From Cryomorphaceae bacterium (GTDB lineage: Bacteria > Bacteroidota > Bacteroidia > Flavobacteriales > Schleiferiaceae), in assembly GCA_020832345.1 (NCBI GenBank), contig JAFIEY010000199.1:1-63330 (forward strand): a stretch of 63,330 nt of DNA. The letters run 5' to 3'. A program made the translations under genes and the position numbers. Every line of letters starts with the position of its first letter. Position 1 is the stretch's first letter. The notes beneath the pieces were generated by a model. It was not told where the DNA came from. It searched no databases and worked only from the letters and a program-made list of their open reading frames with translations. Of the stretch, positions 151 to 62,836 are shown piece after piece.

Positions 151-197
151 CAAAAAAACGACCGGCGGGTTAAACTGTCGGTCGTTTGTTTTTTTGA
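151..197 (-). terminator. Intrinsic terminator overlapping the end of the patatin gene
   Basis: On the minus strand the stem AAACGACCG pairs with CGGTCGTTT across a loop that contains the TAA stop of the patatin gene, and a run of seven T follows. The upstream arm is therefore the last codons of the gene. It ends the six-gene operon that starts near 7.2 kb. Confidence 0.8.
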
Positions 198-2020
198 GGT
201 GACGACCAATCGATGGGTGTTTCCGAAAGTTTTTTATCCGTGTATTTCCGACTTTGTTCGATCGTTTCCAAGTGGCGATCCCAGGCCAAAAATCCAACTT
301 GCTGAACGGGCGGTTCTATGTGTAAATCACATCTTTGTATCGCCTCTTTGTATTTGTCGTAATTCGACAACACCATGGCTTCCATAATAATAGATGCAAA
401 TTTGGGCACTTTAATCCTTCGTCCGGTTACTTTATTTTTAATGTGTTCAACTGAATCCGGAACCCGATCATAATCCAGTTTATAGGATTTAAATTTATGA
501 AGTGTGACGATAATCTTTCGATTAATATTTTTCTTTTCCAGTGTTGAGATAGGCAAGTTATCCAAAATACCTCCATCCAAAAGCAGGTTGTTACCGTCCA
601 CTGCCGGGGGAAATAATCCGGGGAGGGAAATCGACGCCCGGGTTGCTTTATCCAATCGGCCATGGCTAATTTCACGTGCGGTTTTTTCGCTGAGATTTGC
701 GGACATACATGAAAAATTAATCCACAAATCTTCGATGTTTATATCGCCGTACAATTCATGAAGGAACTTATCCAAATCCTTTCCCTTCAAGAGGGAAATA
801 AATGGAAAGAAATTCATGTTTTTCCTTTTGGTGGGAATGAATTTAGCAATTCGATTTGCACTGCGCATTACTTCATCCTCCTCCAAATCCATGGCAAAAA
901 AGGCGCCGGCAATAGAACCCGCACTAGTTCCGCAAATATAATCCATGGGAACACCTTTATCCTTCAATGCTAAATATACACCTACATGGGCCATGCCCTT
1001 AGCACCACCTCCTGCCAATGCAATGCCCACAGCATTCCCGGAAATATACCGAACAACTCTGGCCATATCACACTTTCGATCCATGCGAACATGATGGTGC
1101 AAATGAACATTTCTATCCGTTAAAAAACGGGCGGTGTTTTCTGGTTTAGTTTTCCCATCTGCATGTAATAAAACCAAATGGGTAGTTTGCAGTTGATGAT
1201 GACCAGTATAAAGCTTTTTTTCTAAAACCGTCGGAGTTGGATTATCAGAAAAGGATTTTATCACAAAATACATATCTGCCTGCCGCGTGGATTGCTCAAA
1301 AAACGCAGGCTCATCTGGGGTGCTAATAATGAAAACGAAATCATGGTCGGATTCTGCCTGATCAAAAAATTGCTGAACACGAGCATTAACAAGGGGATCA
1401 TCTCCATTTAAATCCTTTGGTGTGACTCCCGTTACATTGTAAAATGTAGAGGCATCAATGGTTTTGCAAGTACCGGATTTTTGGATTTCCGTTTTGATTT
1501 CGGATAAAAAGGTTTTTGTGAGTGAGCCGGATTTTTCCACCAAAAGGGAAATCACACGACCGGGAGCAGAAGAATTATCCTTGCCCAATTGTTGTGTAGA
1601 ACGTCTGACAATGGTTTGCATGATGCCAAAAACCAAATTGGGAAAAAGACTCAAGAACTTTTTCAAACCTAGTTCATCGAGTTGTATCAGCACAGAGTCT
1701 CTAATGGCAAAAACGGAGGATGATCTTTTTTCCTTGGTAAACACACCCAATTCACCCACTGATTGTCCGGCAGCAACTTCTCCCAATTTTGTCATTTGAC
1801 CATCTTCTCCTTCCAAAACGGCGGATAATCTACCGCTGACCAAGAAGTAAATACAATCGGATGTAGCACCTTGGGAGATGATTTTCTCGCCACCTTTTAC
1901 AAATTTCCAGGAAACTAAATCTTTAATGGAATCCCATTGCGATTCTGAAATGCTTCCAAACACGGGTTTCAAAACATTTTGAATAACCGAAAAATCATAC
2001 TTGGGTACTTTTGGCTCCAT
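170..2020 (-). CDS. Cyclic-nucleotide-binding patatin-like phospholipase
   Basis: The 616-residue protein joins a cyclic-nucleotide-binding domain (about 15-140) to a C-terminal patatin lipase domain (about 330-540), the layout of neuropathy-target-esterase-like lipases. The patatin part shows the oxyanion motif GGGAKG (337-342), the nucleophile Ser366 in GTSAG and the dyad Asp482 in DGG. The phosphate-binding cassette keeps Gly89-Glu90-Leu91 and Arg99, so ligand binding is plausible. The middle region (about 150-325) is the one typical of this architecture and has no clear catalytic motif. An adenylate cyclase gene lies directly upstream in the same operon, so I infer that cAMP controls a membrane phospholipase or lysophospholipase activity. 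No signal peptide is visible, so it is probably cytoplasmic or peripheral. Confidence 0.88.
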   Translation of the reverse strand: MEPKVPKYDFSVIQNVLKPVFGSISESQWDSIKDLVSWKFVKGGEKIISQGATSDCIYFLVSGRLSAVLEGEDGQMTKLGEVAAGQSVGELGVFTKEKRSSSVFAIRDSVLIQLDELGLKKFLSLFPNLVFGIMQTIVRRSTQQLGKDNSSAPGRVISLLVEKSGSLTKTFLSEIKTEIQKSGTCKTIDASTFYNVTGVTPKDLNGDDPLVNARVQQFFDQAESDHDFVFIISTPDEPAFFEQSTRQADMYFVIKSFSDNPTPTVLEKKLYTGHHQLQTTHLVLLHADGKTKPENTARFLTDRNVHLHHHVRMDRKCDMARVVRYISGNAVGIALAGGGAKGMAHVGVYLALKDKGVPMDYICGTSAGSIAGAFFAMDLEEDEVMRSANRIAKFIPTKRKNMNFFPFISLLKGKDLDKFLHELYGDINIEDLWINFSCMSANLSEKTAREISHGRLDKATRASISLPGLFPPAVDGNNLLLDGGILDNLPISTLEKKNINRKIIVTLHKFKSYKLDYDRVPDSVEHIKNKVTGRRIKVPKFASIIMEAMVLSNYDKYKEAIQRCDLHIEPPVQQVGFLAWDRHLETIEQSRKYTDKKLSETPIDWSSPQKNKRPTV

Positions 2021-2129
2021 TTTACTTTTAGTTATTTAATCACTGCGAGAAAACGACTAAGTCAAGTACAATTAGACTTCTTCTCGTCGTCGTATTTTAA
2101 CGAATTAGTGTAAATTTTCTATTCAAATC

Positions 2130-3083
2130 TCAAAGTTTAATTTTTTGCAGCAATAATTCCAGTGCAGTTGTTAAGTGATGTCGATTAGAAATAGACTGCA
2201 ACTCGCTAAACGAAATGTTTTCCTTAAAGGCAAAACCATTTTCGGTAATTTGCAGATAGGGATTATTTTCCAGTAAGAGTTTTTCTTTGGAGTGCCCAAT
2301 AGAATTTAATTCGTGGACTTCAACGGGAAAGTGAATTCCCCGAATTTCGAGTTTTTGTTTAAACGAAGTATTAAAAGTTGGCGAAAGCAAATTCTTGGTC
2401 ACCGAGCTGATAAAAATTGAACCCGGCTTAGCAAGGGACTCTAACCGACTGGCGATATTCACATTACCACCTATAATGGTATAATCCATTCTATTTTCAG
2501 ATCCAAAATTTCCAACGGTACAATATCCGGAATGAATGCCCATACGTGCTTTTAGTCCGTGTTCAATGCCCTTATTTTTCCATTTCTTATCAATTTCCTG
2601 ACATTTAACCTGCATTTCAATCGCCATGGCACAGCAGTCTTCCGCGTGTTGTTTATCATTTATAAATTGCGGATCACCAAAGAACACCATGAGGGCATCC
2701 CCAATAAACTTATCGATAGTTCCACCGTGTTTATGGGCAATAAGTGCCATATCGTTGAGGTATCCATTGAGTAAGTCCGACAAGACTTCCGGATCGGTTC
2801 GATCGGAGATTTCGGTAAAACTAACGATATCGGAGAAAAAAATAGTAAGGAACTTTCTCTTATAAGAAAGCGTAACCTCTTGCCCATTTCCCACGATAGA
2901 TTCAAACAGTTGGGGCGAGAGGTATTTTTTGAGTTGATTGATCAAATTGGAAATGTCTCGGTTTTTAAGCTCAAGTTCGTTTTCCATGACCGAGCTGTGT
3001 TCGGCGATGGTTTCGTAAAGATTTTTGAGGTCATTTACCTCATCAATTAATTTTTGTTTATCCCATTGTTGGATGTTATCCAT
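2130..3083 (-). CDS. Class III adenylate cyclase, soluble
   Basis: This 317-residue protein has a short N-terminal coiled coil (about 10-50) and a class III nucleotide cyclase domain (about 75-255). The catalytic set looks complete: metal-binding Asp85 and Asp129, Lys125 and Asp200 at the adenine-selecting positions, and Asn209 and Arg213 of the transition-state pair. Lys plus Asp favours ATP over GTP, so cAMP is the expected product. No membrane segment is visible. The roughly 60 C-terminal residues match no domain I recognise. It follows the STAS-like gene by 19 bp and precedes the cyclic-nucleotide-binding patatin gene by 109 bp, which suggests that maker and sensor of one messenger are co-expressed. 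Confidence 0.9.
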   Translation of the reverse strand: MDNIQQWDKQKLIDEVNDLKNLYETIAEHSSVMENELELKNRDISNLINQLKKYLSPQLFESIVGNGQEVTLSYKRKFLTIFFSDIVSFTEISDRTDPEVLSDLLNGYLNDMALIAHKHGGTIDKFIGDALMVFFGDPQFINDKQHAEDCCAMAIEMQVKCQEIDKKWKNKGIEHGLKARMGIHSGYCTVGNFGSENRMDYTIIGGNVNIASRLESLAKPGSIFISSVTKNLLSPTFNTSFKQKLEIRGIHFPVEVHELNSIGHSKEKLLLENNPYLQITENGFAFKENISFSELQSISNRHHLTTALELLLQKIKL

Positions 3084-3102
3084 GGTTCAGGTTTGGCTTA
3101 AT

Positions 3103-3447
3103 TTAGTTCATTTCCAATTTAATATTGGGCCACAATTTTTTAAAATTGGAAAGTGATTTTTGTTGCCATGAAACTTCATTAGAACCTTTAACCGTAAGTT
3201 CTAATCCTCCATTCTTTTTACAATTGAGAATAAACAAACTAATGGTTGTAATTCCCGAACTGTTTAAGAATTGTAAATTTTCAAAATCAAGCACAAGGGA
3301 ATCGTCAAATGTGTTTCCGTGTTCCTTGAGAAAATCTGCAACCTGCTCATATTCTTTCATATTGGCAAGTCGCATAGAACCACTAAATTTTATGCTGCTG
3401 CTGTTTTCATCTAATGTAACTTCAGCGTCTCCTGCTTTCAGTGTCAT
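3103..3447 (-). CDS. STAS-like anti-sigma-antagonist-type regulator (slr1659-like)
   Basis: This 114-residue protein has the size and fold signature of a STAS domain: alternating strands and helices with LNSSGITTI near residue 62, where STAS phospho-acceptor serines normally sit. It resembles the slr1659 superfamily that commonly sits beside slr1658-type proteins. Here it follows a GHKL-like protein by 47 bp, with a PP2C phosphatase just before that. This is the usual parts list of a partner switch: kinase or binder, phospho-switch and phosphatase. The phosphorylation role is inferred from context. The downstream target is unknown. Confidence 0.72.
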   Translation of the reverse strand: MTLKAGDAEVTLDENSSSIKFSGSMRLANMKEYEQVADFLKEHGNTFDDSLVLDFENLQFLNSSGITTISLFILNCKKNGGLELTVKGSNEVSWQQKSLSNFKKLWPNIKLEMN

Positions 3448-3494
3448 AATTATTTCGTTTTCGATTGGGTTTTATTTCTTATTCAAGATGCCAA

Positions 3495-4148
3495 CTAGGC
3501 ACTTTCCAGACTGTAATAAACCTGAATTTTCACTCGGTGAGTACCGTCTTCGGAGTGGAATCTTGCACCAATTTTAATGGGGTAGTCTTTGAGTAAAAGC
3601 ATGATGCCAATACCTGAACCTTCAGGACTATCGCTTTTCTCGGCCAGGGTTTGATAGTATAAACCTTCCAAATCTTCGCATTCAAGCAAATTCTTAACGT
3701 GTTTTTTATACCCCTCATAATGGTTTATGGTGGTAATGTTTTCTATTTCAATTTTCAGAATTGAATCGTAGAGCATGAGGTGAATTTTTACTTCACCACC
3801 GCGTTTTACGGAATACTTTGTAGCATTTTCTATCAGCTCATTAAAAATGGTTGAAATAGAATTTTCTAAAACTTGAGATTTTTCTCTTGTGTTGCCGTAA
3901 AAAGCTGCAACAAAATCTGCCAACATTCCGCATCGTTTCCAGTAGGAAATCATATCTATTGGCTTTAGTCGGATAAACACATTCCCTTCCGCGGGAATGC
4001 TTTCGTGGATGATATTAAAATCACCGATTACAACTTCTTCGTTCATGGATTTTTGGGTTTGTTGTGTCACCATTTCAGTCGGGTTATCATTATTTTCCAG
4101 GGGGTGTCTCATTGTGGGCAATATTTTTTCTTGAGGCAAAGTACTCAT
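3495..4148 (-). CDS. GHKL ATPase-like regulator (slr1658-like)
   Basis: This 217-residue protein carries an N-box-like NELIENATKYS near residue 100 and a G-box-like GSGIGIML near 182, as in the GHKL ATP-binding fold of anti-sigma-factor kinases. The first 50 residues are polar and probably disordered. I see no histidine-kinase dimerisation helix, so it is more like an RsbW-type serine kinase or a nucleotide-binding partner than a two-component sensor. It overlaps the upstream phosphatase gene by 4 bp (ATGA) and precedes the STAS-like gene, which supports a partner-switching module. Whether the nucleotide site is functional cannot be judged here. Confidence 0.72.
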   Translation of the reverse strand: MSTLPQEKILPTMRHPLENNDNPTEMVTQQTQKSMNEEVVIGDFNIIHESIPAEGNVFIRLKPIDMISYWKRCGMLADFVAAFYGNTREKSQVLENSISTIFNELIENATKYSVKRGGEVKIHLMLYDSILKIEIENITTINHYEGYKKHVKNLLECEDLEGLYYQTLAEKSDSPEGSGIGIMLLLKDYPIKIGARFHSEDGTHRVKIQVYYSLESA

Positions 4149-5701
4149 GATTCTGGTTTTTCATTTTTTTTAAAGGCAATAGCGGTAATATCATCCATGA
4201 TTTCCCGTTTACCCACAAACTGATAAACATCATCATAAATGGCTTTTAGCAGTTTTTTCGGACCTTTAGATGCATTGTTTTCAAACACTTCCATAAGTCT
4301 GTCTTCTCCATAAAAAGCGCCATCGGGATCTTCCGCTTCGGTCAGACCATCGGTATAAAAGAAGTACAAGTCGCCGTGATTTAAGGGCAAATCTTGTTCT
4401 CGTAAGTGTTCACCAACATCTTCAATTAAACCAATGTAAATCCCTAAATCTTCTGTGGAAATCATTTTACATGATTGTTTTTCCGCGTCGAAATACAGGA
4501 TGTTTTCGTGTTGCCCACAAACTGTGAGCTTATCTTCTTCAATTCGAGCCAAAATCATCGTTAGATTCCGAAAATCTTCCATTCTATTTCGGATATTTCG
4601 ATATAAAATGGTGTTGATTCGATTGAGTGCTTTGGGCAATTCCATCCGATGGTCGTCGAGTGTAGCCCTTGTAATGCTTTGTGCCATCAACATTACAAGA
4701 CCGGATTGTAATCCGTGGTCAGTAACATCGCCAATGGCCAAAATGGCAGATTTATCCTTTTGAGGTAAAAATTCGTAAAAGTCTCCACCAACTTCAGATG
4801 CAGGATCCATCCTAGCGGCCACTTCAATGCCTATTTGTGCAACAAATTCTTGTTCATTGGGCAGCATCATCAACTGGATTTTCCTCGCAACATCGAGTTC
4901 CATACCCATTCGCATGTTCTCATTTTTGAGCTGCATTTTTTCCTCGTTGGCAATATTGATTTTCTCAATTACCGTAGGAATGACATTCAGCACCCGGGAA
5001 ATCATGTTGGATTCAAAATACACCGCTAAGAAAGCGAAAATCATAAATATCATCCAAACAGTGAAGTAAAGCAAAATTGGTCCGGGAACCAATCGCTTGT
5101 CTTGCAGTTCTACCAAACGTTCCTCTGCATCCAAATCACCTTTGGCCAACGCATCATTAAAAGCGGTAACTTCTTCTTGGGTAAGTAAGTGATATTCAAA
5201 ACCGGGGCCAATATTGTAATAAGCCACCGCAAGACTTAGTCCACTAATAATAAACCAAATTACGGCAGTTTTCCGTCCGAGTACCGTACCGACAACAAAT
5301 AAAAGAATAACGGAAAATCCGAAATCCACCAACATGCTCATTGCGGTATTAATACTTGCATGAACAATAAGCAAAGCCATCAACATGGCGATTAAGATGG
5401 AGGCCCAGGCGGTTACCTTGTCCTTTTTTATCGTGCCTTGCGTTTTCCCGGATAATACCCTAAAATTATAATTAAGCGATAAAGCATTGATTAAAATGAG
5501 AAGCGGATAGAAGATTAAATCACGTGCAGGATCGGGCAACGTACCAAAATTGATAAGTTGAATAACGAGAAATAATACCAGAGATGCTATAAAAACTGCA
5601 TTTACAGCAATAAGAATTTTTCGGCTTGTATCCCGTCCCGGTTCTGCTAGCATCTGTCCTGCTTCTAGCAGAACGTCATCATTGTGATTAATATTCTCCA
5701 A
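4145..5701 (-). CDS. Membrane-anchored PP2C (SpoIIE-type) serine phosphatase
   Basis: The 518-residue protein has about six hydrophobic segments between residues 28 and 235, a short coiled-coil linker, and a SpoIIE/RsbU-type PP2C domain from about 275. The metal-site motifs are present: EVGGDFYEF near 300, DVTDHG near 322, FYTDGLTEAED near 455 and DDITAIA near 505. It should dephosphorylate a phosphorylated STAS protein, and the best candidate is the one two genes downstream. The membrane domain presumably senses an envelope or lipid signal, but I do not recognise its type. It starts 3 bp after the acyltransferase-methyltransferase gene. Confidence 0.88.
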   Translation of the reverse strand: MENINHNDDVLLEAGQMLAEPGRDTSRKILIAVNAVFIASLVLFLVIQLINFGTLPDPARDLIFYPLLILINALSLNYNFRVLSGKTQGTIKKDKVTAWASILIAMLMALLIVHASINTAMSMLVDFGFSVILLFVVGTVLGRKTAVIWFIISGLSLAVAYYNIGPGFEYHLLTQEEVTAFNDALAKGDLDAEERLVELQDKRLVPGPILLYFTVWMIFMIFAFLAVYFESNMISRVLNVIPTVIEKINIANEEKMQLKNENMRMGMELDVARKIQLMMLPNEQEFVAQIGIEVAARMDPASEVGGDFYEFLPQKDKSAILAIGDVTDHGLQSGLVMLMAQSITRATLDDHRMELPKALNRINTILYRNIRNRMEDFRNLTMILARIEEDKLTVCGQHENILYFDAEKQSCKMISTEDLGIYIGLIEDVGEHLREQDLPLNHGDLYFFYTDGLTEAEDPDGAFYGEDRLMEVFENNASKGPKKLLKAIYDDVYQFVGKREIMDDITAIAFKKNEKPES

Positions 5702-5704
5702 TGG

Positions 5705-7195
5705 TCAGCGTTTTTGATAAATCTTTGTTTCTATACGAATAGATATATCATCGTTGTGGGTAGAGTAATGTGATTCTGCCAGTTCAAATTCAGCTTCAAT
5801 TTCAGGTCGTTGACCCATAAAAGCAAACATTGCCCACATGGTCCATTTTCCCAATCTGAGGTGATTTCCTTCCAGTACAGGACCGTTTTCAGTGCCTGTG
5901 TTTGTTGTGGTTATGGTGAATTCTTCCACCAAGCTAAATCCCCCCGTTTCAGCCAAACTATTCATTTCTAGCATAATCTTTCGATTTCCCTCATACATAT
6001 CACTATGTTTTTGCACCATAGTTTTTATGACATCGGGACCCTCAAAAGTTGCATCATTAACATCCGTAACTATGAAATATCCTTGGTTGGCTAATATACG
6101 GTGGATTTCTTTTATAGCTAAATATGGCTTCAACAAGTGTATAAATAAAAATGAGGTGTGAACTAAGTCAAATTTTTTATCCTCAATTAATACATTATAC
6201 ACTGAACCATTGAACCATTGAATATGCGGATGAGAAAATTTTGCATAGTCTATAAGGTCTTTATCTATGTCTATACCGGTAAGATTTTTACCTTTTGATT
6301 CCGGCAACTTACTTATAAGCGACAAATACACGCCCGGACCGCAACCCATATCAAGAACATTTTGGATGGATGGATTGTTTTTTAACAACGATCGCCAAAT
6401 TTTTTCCTGGGTTAGAAATAGCATCCTGGCTTGAGCCGATAACCGGGGAAGTTCATCGCCCAATGAAAGAGGTTGAAGGTATAAATTGTTTTCATCCAAA
6501 TCAATGTGATAAGAACCAGCCAGCGCTTGATTGCTTTGGATGTGGTGGGCCAAATCGGGAAGTGAAATTTTGTGGTTTTCCTTTTGACGGGAAGAAAAAT
6601 TCCGCATGGCCAGCACCAACTTTTTTAATCTAATGGGTTCATCAATCAACAAAACATCCACCTCCTCATCACCGTCCTTTGCTTCAAATATTTTATTGAA
6701 ACCATAAATCCGATTATAACTATCGCGAAACCTACGGTGTGCACCTGCAAGCGAAGCAAATAATCCCGCCGGCTCAAAAAGTTCAAAAACGCTTTTTATT
6801 CCAAAGGCGACCATAAGACTTGCCATTTTCTTATCTCGATATTCGGGAAGTTCAGCCCTACGGGAAAATTGAACCAGATTGCGTGAATGACCGGTAATAC
6901 CCAAATTTTCGAGATGTGGGTGGCCGGGTGGAAAAACAAACATGCTAACGGTAGAAACCAATTCGTTGCTATTAAACAAGCCCAAATGAAGTCCCAACTC
7001 ATCATAAGGTGAATCAACAACGTAATCATCTAATTTTTGCTCTTCTACAAAAACGCGGTGTCGAAGCGCACGTATAGCATCTTTGTACTGATCAAAAAGC
7101 ATCCAACGTAGAGAGAACTGATGCTGATCGTCAATTTGTTCTCTTGATTTATTATTTGGTGCCACGAGAGTTTCGTTTTGCAGTTTTGAGTGCAT
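5705..7195 (-). CDS. GNAT/FeeM-like acyltransferase fused to a SAM methyltransferase
   Basis: The 496-residue protein has two parts. Residues 30-210 look like a GNAT-fold acyltransferase of the N-acyl amino acid synthase or autoinducer-synthase type, with LRHRVFVEEQ near 43 and an arginine-rich FSRRAELPEYR segment near 110. Residues about 265-400 form a class I methyltransferase with motif I VLDMGCGPGV near 283. A single chain that could acylate and then methylate a small amine would make a lipid-like product, possibly a signal; this is inference. It is the first gene of the operon, preceded by a 444-bp gap with a good promoter match. Substrate and chain length are unknown. Confidence 0.68.
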   Translation of the reverse strand: MHSKLQNETLVAPNNKSREQIDDQHQFSLRWMLFDQYKDAIRALRHRVFVEEQKLDDYVVDSPYDELGLHLGLFNSNELVSTVSMFVFPPGHPHLENLGITGHSRNLVQFSRRAELPEYRDKKMASLMVAFGIKSVFELFEPAGLFASLAGAHRRFRDSYNRIYGFNKIFEAKDGDEEVDVLLIDEPIRLKKLVLAMRNFSSRQKENHKISLPDLAHHIQSNQALAGSYHIDLDENNLYLQPLSLGDELPRLSAQARMLFLTQEKIWRSLLKNNPSIQNVLDMGCGPGVYLSLISKLPESKGKNLTGIDIDKDLIDYAKFSHPHIQWFNGSVYNVLIEDKKFDLVHTSFLFIHLLKPYLAIKEIHRILANQGYFIVTDVNDATFEGPDVIKTMVQKHSDMYEGNRKIMLEMNSLAETGGFSLVEEFTITTTNTGTENGPVLEGNHLRLGKWTMWAMFAFMGQRPEIEAEFELAESHYSTHNDDISIRIETKIYQKR

Positions 7196-7639
7196 TGCAA
7201 TAGGATTTATTGTTCCGGATGTTTTACCCGTAATAAATTCTCGAATTGTGAAATCTGAGACAATGATATGCAGTTTTCAAAACGCTTTGTAAAGTGATAA
7301 TTAGTGAGAAGCATTCAGAAGAATAATTAGGGTTTCCGACAAATGTACAAATCAAAATCGCAAATTCACAAATGTGAAAAGTGTTTTTTTATTATGATAA
7401 CAAATAGAAATAAAATAAATATTATATCCTTGTTTTTTAAAAAATAATTCAATTATATATACTTTTTTCTGACATCCAATATTTCTTAAATCAGGCTATA
7501 TTTATCTTCCCGTATATTTTTATTTTCCAAAAATCGAACTTATTTGTCGAATTTTTTCCACAAAATGGGATATTATACAAAATTTTCAATAGGTTTTTTC
7601 TATTAAAATGACCCCCTAAAAATGGATTTTTTGAAAGAT
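7196..7639. other. AT-rich intergenic region between the signalling operon and menD
   Basis: The 444-bp gap holds no ORF that looks real. Its left part holds a promoter match driving the signalling operon leftwards. The right part (about 7380-7620) is very AT-rich with long A and T runs, and menD ends at its right edge, reading leftwards into it. No clear intrinsic terminator for menD is visible, and no RNA gene was recognised. Confidence 0.6.
7340..7372 (-). promoter_or_regulatory. Putative promoter of the six-gene signalling operon
   Basis: On the minus strand TTTG is followed after 21 bases by TACATTTG, matching the Bacteroidota form TTTG-N(19-21)-TAnnTTTG. It would give a leader of about 135 bases before the start codon at 7195. 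Confidence 0.5.
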
Positions 7640-10580: not shown

Positions 10581-10945
10581 GCGTGCAAAAATAGAAAGGA
10601 TTTGTGGTTATTGCGAATTCCATCGACGTATTCCGCGCAAAATAATTTTGAGTCTGATCCAAAATGTCCCTTTCTGCCAAAATCTACTTTATCCATAGAT
10701 TTTGAATCCTCACTAACAAATAGTTAGCTCCGGATCAAAATTCCCCTTTGCAACGAATTTGATTGAAATCATCCTTTTTGGAGTGGACTCATTTTATAAC
10801 TTTGCACAACACCCCACAGCACTTAAAATGACTAATAATAATCATGTTTATCCTAAAGAATTTTGCGCAACTTTGCCGCATCAATAAATCTTAACACAAA
10901 GTCTCGTCGAAAAGACTTTTTTGAGTAAAAATATGTACTGACAAT
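10581..10945. other. Divergent intergenic region holding MITE copy B
   Basis: This 365-bp gap between the thioesterase gene (leftward) and the PLP decarboxylase gene (rightward) is mostly MITE copy B (10649-10791). A TAACTTTG box lies at 10797-10804, just outside the right end. Its -33 partner would be the TTTG in the element's own terminal repeat, but the spacing is only 16 bases, so element-driven transcription of the decarboxylase gene is only a possibility. I see no RNA gene. Confidence 0.6.
10649..10791 (+). repeat. MITE-like element, full-length copy B
   Basis: This 143-bp copy is more diverged than copy A, with several substitutions in both arms and the interior. The flanking 4-mers are ATTT and TTTT, a three-of-four match. 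It sits between divergent genes. The terminal inverted repeats remain clear: TGAGTCTGATCC at the left and GGAGTGGACTCA at the right. Confidence 0.88.
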
Positions 10946-34891: not shown

Positions 34892-34948
34892 TGAGTCTGC
34901 TCTAAAAAGTCCCTTTCTGCCAAAATCTTCCTTTTTAGAGTGGACTCA
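34892..34948 (+). repeat. MITE-like element, 57-bp short copy D, with TTAC target duplication
   Basis: This copy keeps the left 40 and right 17 bases of the full element and lacks the palindromic middle. Perfect 4-bp repeats TTAC flank it (34888-34891 and 34949-34952). The right duplication contains the rpsA stop codon, so the element sits exactly at the end of rpsA and becomes part of its 3' untranslated region. Confidence 0.92.
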
Positions 34949-41495: not shown

Positions 41496-41552
41496 TGAGT
41501 CTGCTCAAAAAAGTCCCTTTCTGCCAAAATCATCCTTTTTGGAGTGGACTCA
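41496..41552 (+). repeat. MITE-like element, 57-bp short copy F, with CTTT target duplication
   Basis: Terminal repeats are intact and the palindromic middle is missing. Perfect CTTT repeats flank it (41492-41495 and 41553-41556). At the deletion junction it reads ATCATCC, the right-end version of the flanking direct repeat, whereas copies D and G read ATCTTCC. Confidence 0.92.
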
Positions 41553-43079: not shown

Positions 43080-43985
43080 ATGACAAATTACGCTTCAGGA
43101 AAACTCATGCTAACCGGCGAATACCTAGTATTAAACGGAGCAGAAACCATCGCGTTAGCCACTAAATTTGGCCAAACCATGCACATTGAAAGCCATGGCG
43201 AAGGGCTTCTTTGGCAGGCAAACGACAACGAAGGAAATTTATGGTTTCAAGCTGAATGGAACGAACAAGGAGAAGTCATCAACACAACTGACCCCGAAGT
43301 TAGTGAGCGACTCAACGATTTATTTGCCATTCTGATGAGTATCAATCCAGAATTTGAACCCTTTAACGGAAATAAAATCACCACGGATTTAGAATTCCCA
43401 TTGGATTGGGGCTTGGGATCAAGCAGCACCAATGACGGATTGCTTTGCTCATGGGCAGATGTAGATATTTCCGATAAAGGTGATCTCAGTCAAATTTCAG
43501 GTGGAGGAAGTGGATACGATATCGTTGTCGCCATTGAAAAATCATCAATCACCTTTCAATTGGAAGATGAAGGTCCCGAATGGCAAACCATTTCATTTTC
43601 TTTCCCCACACCCGGTCACTGGCATTTTATCCACAGTAACGTCAAACAGTCAACAGCTGAAGAAATCGAACGTTACAACCAGCTTGAGCATTCCGAGGAT
43701 TACAACGAGCAAATTAAAGACATTAATGCCCAAATTCTGGCGTCAACATCGGATGAGGAAATTGCAGATTTACTTACGCAGCATGAGGACATAATTTCCC
43801 AATGCATTGGGCTTCCACCAATTAAATCAGAATTATTTTCAGACTATCCCTATTGTGTAAAATCATTAGGCGCTTGGGGTGGAGATTTTTTTCTGGCCTA
43901 CACACCCAATTCAGAGGATGTTCAATATTTTCAAAACAAAGGTTACAATACGATTTTATCGAGCAATGATATGATTAAGTCATGA
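43080..43985 (+). CDS. GYDIA-family GHMP kinase (mevalonate pathway)
   Basis: The 301-residue GHMP-superfamily kinase has an N-terminal MTNYASGKLMLTGEYLVLNGA, the ATP loop WGLGSSSTNDGLL near 115, and SGGGSGYDIVVAIEKS near 140, a variant of the GYDIA motif. Such proteins in this phylum are thought to phosphorylate mevalonate or phosphomevalonate. Its position directly after HMG-CoA reductase agrees. Its TGA stop codon is the first three bases of MITE copy G, which replaced the older TAA without changing the protein. Confidence 0.88.
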   Translation: MTNYASGKLMLTGEYLVLNGAETIALATKFGQTMHIESHGEGLLWQANDNEGNLWFQAEWNEQGEVINTTDPEVSERLNDLFAILMSINPEFEPFNGNKITTDLEFPLDWGLGSSSTNDGLLCSWADVDISDKGDLSQISGGGSGYDIVVAIEKSSITFQLEDEGPEWQTISFSFPTPGHWHFIHSNVKQSTAEEIERYNQLEHSEDYNEQIKDINAQILASTSDEEIADLLTQHEDIISQCIGLPPIKSELFSDYPYCVKSLGAWGGDFFLAYTPNSEDVQYFQNKGYNTILSSNDMIKS

Positions 43986-44039
43986 GTCTGCTCACAAAAG
44001 TCCCTTTCTGCCAAAATCTTCCTTTTTGGAGTGGACTCA
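43983..44039 (+). repeat. MITE-like element, 57-bp short copy G, with GTCA target duplication
   Basis: Perfect GTCA repeats flank it (43979-43982 and 44040-44043). It inserted right after the last sense codon of the GHMP kinase gene and supplies its stop codon. Removing the element and one GTCA restores AAG-TCA-TAA in frame. The deletion junction is the ATCTTCC form, as in copy D. Confidence 0.93.
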
Positions 44040-62650: not shown

Positions 62651-62691
62651 TGAGTCTGCCCCAAAAAGTCCCTTTCTGCGAAAATCATTCT
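62651..62691 (+). repeat. MITE-like element, truncated left-end copy H1
   Basis: The first 40 bases of the element are present with a few substitutions, then it stops one base before a full copy of the same orientation. It could be the remnant of an older copy, truncated by recombination or by insertion of the next one. Confidence 0.8.
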
Positions 62692-62836
62692 TGAGTCTGC
62701 TCTAAAAAGTCCCTTTCTGCCAAAATCTTCCTTGTCGGTATATTTTCGAATCTTCTCTAATAGCTGGTTAGCTCCGGTTCAAAAAATCCCCTCCGCGTTG
62801 ATTTTGATTGAAATCATCCTTTTTAGAGTGGACTCA
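62692..62836 (+). repeat. MITE-like element, full-length copy H2
   Basis: This 145-bp copy has clear terminal repeats and the palindromic interior, with minor changes (a one-base insertion in the A run). The flanking 4-mers TTCT and TCGT do not match, unlike most other copies, which fits a rearranged junction with H1. Confidence 0.88.

Follow-up and report, generated by a model that had tools for sequence, protein, structure and literature searches.

A six-gene bacterial operon with the makings of a partner-switching cyclic AMP pathway and a lipase output

In the DNA analyzed here, a 63,330-bp window from a Cryomorphaceae bacterium (assembly GCA_020832345.1, contig JAFIEY010000199.1), six tightly spaced genes on the minus strand probably encode, as far as their sequences tell, a partner-switching cyclic AMP (cAMP) pathway with a lipase as its output. 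An earlier sequence-only reading of the window had proposed such a six-gene operon, and the six open reading frames (ORFs) bear out its layout: they run from position 7195 to position 170, with gaps of 3, −4, 47, 19, and 109 bp from gene 1 to gene 6 (Table 1). Pfam and NCBIfam scans agree with the domain names given in that reading, with the reservations that the STAS and HATPase_c matches fall under the Pfam cut-offs and that the label “acyltransferase” for gene 1 rests on weak matches.

Genes 2–4 have the composition of a partner switch. Gene 2, a PP2C phosphatase, has six hydropathy windows over threshold within residues 29–227, three consecutive ones overlapping, and five aspartates that we take to be metal ligands (D307, D325, D451, D503, and D504) are invariant across six aligned sequences. 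Genes 3 and 4 exceed the curated cut-offs (100 bits each) of the slr1658 and slr1659 superfamilies, gene 4 over positions 1–111. The predicted model of gene 3 (mean predicted local distance difference test [pLDDT] score 86) has the RsbW/SpoIIAB-type GHKL fold, its best PDB match being SpoIIAB (1l0o; E = 9.2e-5), followed by other anti-sigma kinases; the N-box (NELIEN, with NEL.EN kept in 18 aligned sequences) and the G2 box (GSGIG) are both present, and the protein is a predicted STAS kinase. In gene 4, the segment LQFLNSSGI aligns by eye with LLYLNTSSIK, reported as the phosphopeptide of the Pseudomonas aeruginosa switch protein SiaC in PMC7647112. An ordinary anti-sigma switch of the RsbU-RsbW-RsbV type, acting on transcription and merely co-transcribed with the cyclase and lipase, would fit the predicted fold of gene 3, which is nearest SpoIIAB/RsbW, and the weak likeness of the gene 4 STAS profile to SpoIIAA (E = 0.018). 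We nevertheless regard it as improbable: the superfamilies of both proteins are slr1658 and slr1659, scores with anti-sigma antagonist models are far under cut-off, Pfam and NCBIfam find no sigma factor gene among the six, and a stalk shared by cyclases, kinases, and phosphatases that are encoded beside slr1659 genes, described below, fits a protein target.

The two putative output enzymes are encoded intact. Gene 5 has a class III cyclase domain, not that of a diguanylate cyclase, and matches CyaB (PDB: 3r5g) at E = 1.4e-54; the complete adenylate cyclase active site recognized in the sequence-only reading is there, D85, D129, K125, T202, N209, and R213 (presumably the two metal Asp, the adenine Lys and Thr, and the Asn and Arg of the family) being invariant in 10 aligned sequences. 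Gene 6 is an NTE-type patatin with three Pfam domains over cut-off, a Ser-Asp dyad (S366/D482), and no hydropathy window over threshold. Its GGGAKG segment (337–342), S366, and D482 are invariant in four aligned sequences, and the Gly-Glu and Arg of the cyclic nucleotide monophosphate (cNMP)-binding cassette (G89-E90...R99), likewise noted before, are present in all four, with what we take to be the spacing of protein kinase A; we assume the usual roles for all these residues. To judge from these domains, cAMP would be the link between the two enzymes. Among 88 genomes of its family, only the window has an NTE_Ploop domain. Gene 6 shares its cNMP, patatin, and Pfam NTE P-loop-like domains with NTE/PNPLA6, as far as PMC9025805 describes the latter, and differs in being bacterial, in having one cNMP domain rather than three, and in its hydropathy. 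According to the part of this review that bears on cAMP, NTE level and activity in HeLa cells rise and fall with raised and lowered cAMP.

The presumed connection between the STAS protein and the cyclase is a 32-residue helix, LYExxxEHSxxxENEL, at the N terminus of gene 5 (window sequence LIDEVNDLKNLYETIAEHSSVMENELELKNRD), in which His29 and Glu34 are invariant in 10 cyclases. A scan of a genome collection with the slr1659 alignment gave at least 548 relatives, of which the best 80 loci were kept; since these were chosen with patterns that include LNSSGI, conservation of this site among them is not independent. Sought among the neighbors of slr1659, first by regular expression and then with profiles, the motif occurs in 65 ORFs in 62 of the 80 loci, and 62 of these ORFs lie within 3 kb of the STAS gene. 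Their outputs are 28 cyclases, nine histidine kinases, nine GGDEF proteins, two cyclase-plus-kinase proteins, five proteins with PAS only, and nine unassigned, classes that come from single-sequence probes with Pfam run on ten examples (one of the nine, in locus L047, is SpoIIE by Pfam). The three ORFs farther away (4.6–4.9 kb from the STAS gene) are two cyclases and a PP2C. PP2C phosphatases with the stalk are found near slr1659 in L119 (2211–3182) and in L047, which suggests STAS control of a phosphatase, in a cascade or as feedback. Also beside slr1659 are short stalk proteins (108–189 residues) in which the probes find no output domain (L050, L062, L063, L069, L072, L115, L122, L164, and L166); the one in L164 has zero NCBIfam matches, and these proteins are possibly decoys or adaptors. 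A comparison of the stalk peptide with the PDB gave nothing useful (best E = 0.0011, a designed repeat protein).

Because slr1659 loci supplied the seed sequences of the stalk profile (A3), re-finding those loci is circular, and the informative results are its absence elsewhere and its occurrence at new cyanobacterial loci. In the genome of the window, which has six cyclase-domain matches (one partial), the stalk of gene 5 is the sole match at E up to 1. All 18 strong matches in 16 whole genomes lie at most 5.7 kb from an slr1659 gene that scores above its cut-off, the distance being at most 1.8 kb for 15 of them, and the four weak rows (E = 0.08–0.95) are two second copies in the same frame and two matches in frames of fewer than 40 residues. 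In the phylum as a whole (395 genomes), the window alone scores clearly (E = 3.3e-14), two rows at E = 0.008 being fragments of 15–19 positions, one with a stop. Cyanobacteria, the phylum of Microcoleus (L068), gave 37 rows in the 23 of 146 genomes with a match at E up to 1e-6; 29 regions were taken, which cover all of these rows except the L068 locus itself. In these regions, 33 ORFs score over 25 bits for the motif. Of these, 31 are new in the sense that they are not identical to an ORF of the earlier loci (L044–L123); they may be related to the earlier ones, some are near-copies of each other (for example, L170/L171, L176/L177, and L186/L187), and others (L189, L190) belong to a genome that had been sampled before. 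As many as 27 of the 31 lie at most 1.8 kb from an slr1659 ORF, defined by a score over 60 bits, where generic STAS proteins from a separate set of 29 loci reach 32. On balance, we lean toward the view that the stalk serves slr1659 STAS proteins as a portable docking helix, which would place any dimeric output fused to it under partner-switch control by PP2C and GHKL proteins.

A precedent is provided by SiaABCD of Pseudomonas aeruginosa, in which a PP2C phosphatase, a kinase, a phosphorylatable STAS-like protein, and a helical-stalk nucleotide cyclase are likewise encoded in one operon (PMC7647112, PMC8457831) and the switch protein has the same N-[T/S]-S site. In the structural passages of PMC8457831, SiaC binds the stalk helices of SiaD with T68 between the helices and N67 and S69 beside it, activation proceeds via the dimer, and phosphorylation of T68 prevents binding. 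The two systems differ in that SiaD is a diguanylate cyclase and gene 5 an adenylate cyclase, the passages of these two papers name no GNAT-methyltransferase or lipase for SiaABCD, and the Sia family models stay under their cut-offs in the window (SiaA, 55.2 of 700 bits; SiaC, 15.7 of 24.5; the SiaB-like DUF6272, 18.0 of 26.6); genes 3 and 4 are distant analogues of SiaB and SiaC. Partner-induced formation of a coiled-coil linker is also described, in sections of PMC12143880, for RsbT-RsbU, where the partner turns a flexible linker into a coiled coil and so activates the phosphatase, and where control through such linkers is proposed to be common to phosphatase, kinase, and GGDEF outputs; the partner there is RsbT rather than an slr1659 STAS protein, and the word “adenylate” is absent from the main text.

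In the model that we propose, the membrane phosphatase would sense a signal and dephosphorylate Ser63 of the STAS protein, the residue that the GHKL kinase would phosphorylate. The unphosphorylated STAS protein would bind the coiled-coil stalk at the N terminus of the cyclase and hold the active dimer, so that cAMP synthesis starts, and a phosphate at the N-S-S site, pointing into the stalk groove, would break this contact. cAMP would then bind the cNMP domain of gene 6 and free the patatin lipase to cut a membrane lipid or lysolipid. A STAS protein that grips the stalk and activates the cyclase would be the simplest reading because of the SiaC/SiaD precedent, the SpoIIAB/RsbW fold, and the association of the stalk with slr1659; the operon-encoded switch of PP2C, GHKL, and STAS proteins already suggested in the sequence-only reading, with the cyclase as its likely target, is one that we infer from conservation and homology.

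Several observations weigh against this model or narrow it. The position that we assigned on the alignment to the Asp of the GHKL G1 box is occupied by an invariant Asn (Asn137) in 18 sequences, which makes the kinase activity of gene 3 uncertain. The stalk has no sequence match to that of SiaD (the alignment of 7e6g with a stalk GGDEF protein starts no earlier than residue 109). No motif ORF is found in 18 of the 80 slr1659 loci; one of the 16 whole genomes, that of Calothrix (G591, L097), has two slr1659 genes and zero stalk matches; and four of the 31 cyanobacterial ORFs, all stalked diguanylate cyclases (L170, L171, L179, and L188; L171 by its sequence), have no slr1659 gene within ∼5 kb, their partner, if any, being located elsewhere. 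A genome from the window’s own family (G528, L129) keeps genes 1–4, and a stalk protein was not found in its assembly. The cNMP-patatin was not found in the six stalk-cyclase loci from Spirochaetes and Chloroflexota, so the lipase cannot count as a general partner, and the window’s genome contains further cyclase domains and six cNMP matches besides gene 6, which therefore need not be the sole or main target of cAMP.

The gene set itself is conserved. All six genes, in the same order and on the same strand, are present in three of the 80 loci (L044, L045, and L046, all Bacteroidota), at identities to the window of 43–52% for gene 1, 54–66% for gene 2, 56–65% for gene 3, 57–67% for gene 4, 62–64% for gene 5, and 41–47% for gene 6; among the matches listed, the closest named records are one Saprospiraceae metagenome-assembled genome and two Membranihabitans. 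It is this recurrence of set and order in other genomes that takes the operon beyond chance, and the gene-neighborhood search suggested with the sequence-only reading, for which lack of conservation would have told against the proposal, thus came out in favor. The patchy spread of slr1659, over its cut-off in one of 148 genomes of the order, one of 395 of the phylum, and two of 88 of the family, is what might be expected if the six genes had no function in common and had become neighbors by chance or through a single mobile insertion. To this explanation we give almost no credence: order and strand are kept in three other records, which already contradicts chance, and at 41–67% identity the copies are too diverged for a single recent block transfer to be likely.

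Other loci show which parts of the set are separable. L047 has genes 1–4 followed by a 308-residue SpoIIE phosphatase with a cyclase-type stalk (4464–5390), beside the STAS gene in the cyclase’s place, and G528 has genes 1–4 followed by an opposite-strand gene, with no adjoining cyclase or lipase. Because these two retain only genes 1–4, these genes form a core, and the cyclase and lipase form a cassette whose members come and go together in the six Bacteroidota loci, the cNMP-patatin being beside the cyclase in all four loci with a cyclase and in neither of the two without; genes 5 and 6 would thereby be an exchangeable output. In Spirochaetes and Chloroflexota (L048, L055, L073, L081, L088, and L094), the stalked cyclase lies in or beside the cluster, with 45–48% identity along most of the protein, stalk included. 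Rhizobial plasmid loci (L032, L035, L042, and L043) encode a GGDEF/EAL protein, a small GHKL-like protein, a STAS-methyltransferase fusion, a PP2C, a GHKL protein (slr1658 by NCBIfam in L032), and a STAS protein, and would be the bgr genes, Bgr of Sinorhizobium meliloti being a switch of the same type whose cyclase is a diguanylate cyclase (as cited in passages of PMC7647112 and PMC8457831). Bgr thus resembles the window in its switch proteins and differs in its cyclic di-GMP output and STAS-fused methyltransferase, and no lipase was seen in the rhizobial loci. A Burkholderia plasmid STAS gene (L040) was discarded as a relative of the operon, the rest of its locus matching none of the other five genes.

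The persistence of genes 1–4 without the cyclase in G528 and L047 is also an argument for a different target, namely that the STAS protein acts chiefly on gene 1, with the cyclase and lipase as passengers or as a second branch. In line with this, the slr1659-like STAS domain is fused to a class I methyltransferase in clusters from rhizobia, Spirochaetes, and Chloroflexota (the fusion occurs in L032, L035–L038, L043, L048, L055, L073, and L088), and a small GHKL protein is encoded just upstream of the fusion in L032, L048, and others, which suggests a second partner-switch pair within the cluster, with the methyltransferase under STAS control. A methyltransferase on a Stanieria plasmid (L034, 6974–7801) reaches 98 bits against the profile of the STAS-fused methyltransferases and has no annotated switch genes adjoining it. 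Gene 1, however, has no stalk match (the A3 profile has its one match in the whole genome on gene 5); its orthology to the STAS-fused methyltransferases is not supported, its 23.0 bits with their profile lying below the 26.2 bits of another methyltransferase in the window (its relatives in L045–L047 reach 38–43 bits); and L047 has a stalked PP2C where the cyclase would be. We therefore consider gene 1 an unlikely main target, if a less unlikely one than a sigma factor pathway, and keep the cyclase in this role; gene 1 would be either a second output or the maker or modifier of the signal.

The proposal that gene 1 is an acyltransferase-methyltransferase making a methylated acyl signal finds no support. 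FeeM matches its N-terminal domain at E = 0.002 and 18.4 bits, against a Pfam cut-off of 27, and matched only one of six family members at E up to 1. The nearest PDB sequence is instead a GNAT acetyltransferase, SACOL1063 (profile match at E = 9.6e-5, profile positions 17–83 of 196), a solved structure whose match speaks for membership of the domain in the GNAT superfamily; glyphosate N-acetyltransferase follows at E = 0.027. The predicted model of gene 1 has a mean pLDDT of 79, and in fold searches with it the methyltransferase half matches 3mgg (Z = 18.4, root-mean-square deviation 2.9 over 228 residues), its best matches being mostly small-molecule methyltransferases; all rows shown are methyltransferases, so that these searches barely probed the GNAT half.

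With regard to transcription, the sequence-only reading had placed a promoter and a terminator at the two ends of the operon. Scans of the window give no excess over shuffled sequences (25 sigma-70-type promoters found versus 26.6 expected and seven terminators versus 8.1), and these counts were dropped as evidence. Both ends nevertheless carry a candidate signal (Table 1): the strict pattern TTTG-N21-TAnnTTTG, which we take to be the Bacteroidota-type promoter consensus, has two matches in the 63,330 bp with both strands searched, both on the minus strand and one upstream of gene 1, and the hairpin at the other end has the longest stem of the terminator scan. Gene 3 probably starts at 4046 rather than 4148, because five Bacteroidota relatives start near the equivalent of Met35 and residues 1–30 of the predicted model have pLDDT values near 60; the −4 overlap with gene 2 may then be an artefact of start choice, the gap becoming 98 bp. 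Directly behind the operon lies one copy of an intergenic repeat with inverted ends (TGAGTCTGCTCTAAAAAG ... CTTTTTAGAGTGGACTCA), found at 1–144, 10649–10791, 34892–34948, 41496–41552, 43983–44039, and 62651–62836; with long copies of ∼144 bp and short copies of ∼57 bp, the family looks like a non-autonomous mobile element.

Table 1. Features of the operon, with supporting match or search
Feature	Coordinates	Strand	Support
Gene 1: fusion of GNAT-like N-terminal domain and class I S-adenosylmethionine-dependent methyltransferase, 496 residues	5705..7195	-	Methyltransf_11 7e-15
Gene 2: membrane PP2C (SpoIIE-type) phosphatase, TTG start, hydrophobic N-terminal half	4145..5701	-	SpoIIE 3.1e-35
Gene 3: GHKL protein, slr1658 superfamily regulator, predicted STAS kinase; likely start 4046	3495..4148	-	NF047703 138.1 bits
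Gene 4: STAS protein, slr1659 superfamily regulator; predicted phosphosite S63 in LNSSG	3103..3447	-	NF047705 120.7 bits
Gene 5: class III adenylate cyclase with N-terminal stalk	2130..3083	-	Guanylate_cyc 1.6e-30
Stalk motif of gene 5, residues 12-42, proposed STAS docking helix	2958..3050	-	A3 profile E 3.3e-14
Gene 6: cNMP-binding, NTE P-loop-like, and patatin lipase domains	170..2020	-	cNMP_binding 1.6e-15, NTE_Ploop 3.7e-10, Patatin 5.2e-26
Presumed Bacteroidota-type promoter, TTTG-N21-TACATTTG	7340..7372	-	strict pattern search
13-pair hairpin, likely bidirectional terminator at operon end	156..187	listed on + strand only	hairpin scan

The sequence-only reading knew of no described system with this set of genes. 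In the literature searched, outside which most subscription journals lie, we found no description of such an operon or of a stalk common to slr1659 neighbors, and nothing on partner switching with cAMP and a patatin; similar switches are known in SiaABCD and Bgr. Synechocystis Slr1658 and Slr1659, the namesakes of the superfamilies of genes 3 and 4, are known from a mutant phenotype in iron recovery and Pgr5 expression in the passages of PMC7555055, which give no mechanism. Partner switching of a nucleotide cyclase is thus already known, and what would be new is the cAMP and lipase output and the GNAT-methyltransferase in the core. Partner switching has been known for sigma factors and a few diguanylate cyclases, and here it is apparently coupled to cAMP and a lipase, with a short motif that marks where docking probably occurs on output enzymes of several kinds. 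If this is true, the docking helix would be a general STAS-to-output adaptor in at least Bacteroidota, Spirochaetes, Chloroflexota, Cyanobacteria, and Pseudomonadota, with adenylate cyclase, diguanylate cyclase, histidine kinase, and PP2C as portable outputs and the window as the cAMP-lipase case, and the targets of many uncharacterized slr1659 genes, with their at least 548 relatives, would become predictable from sequence.

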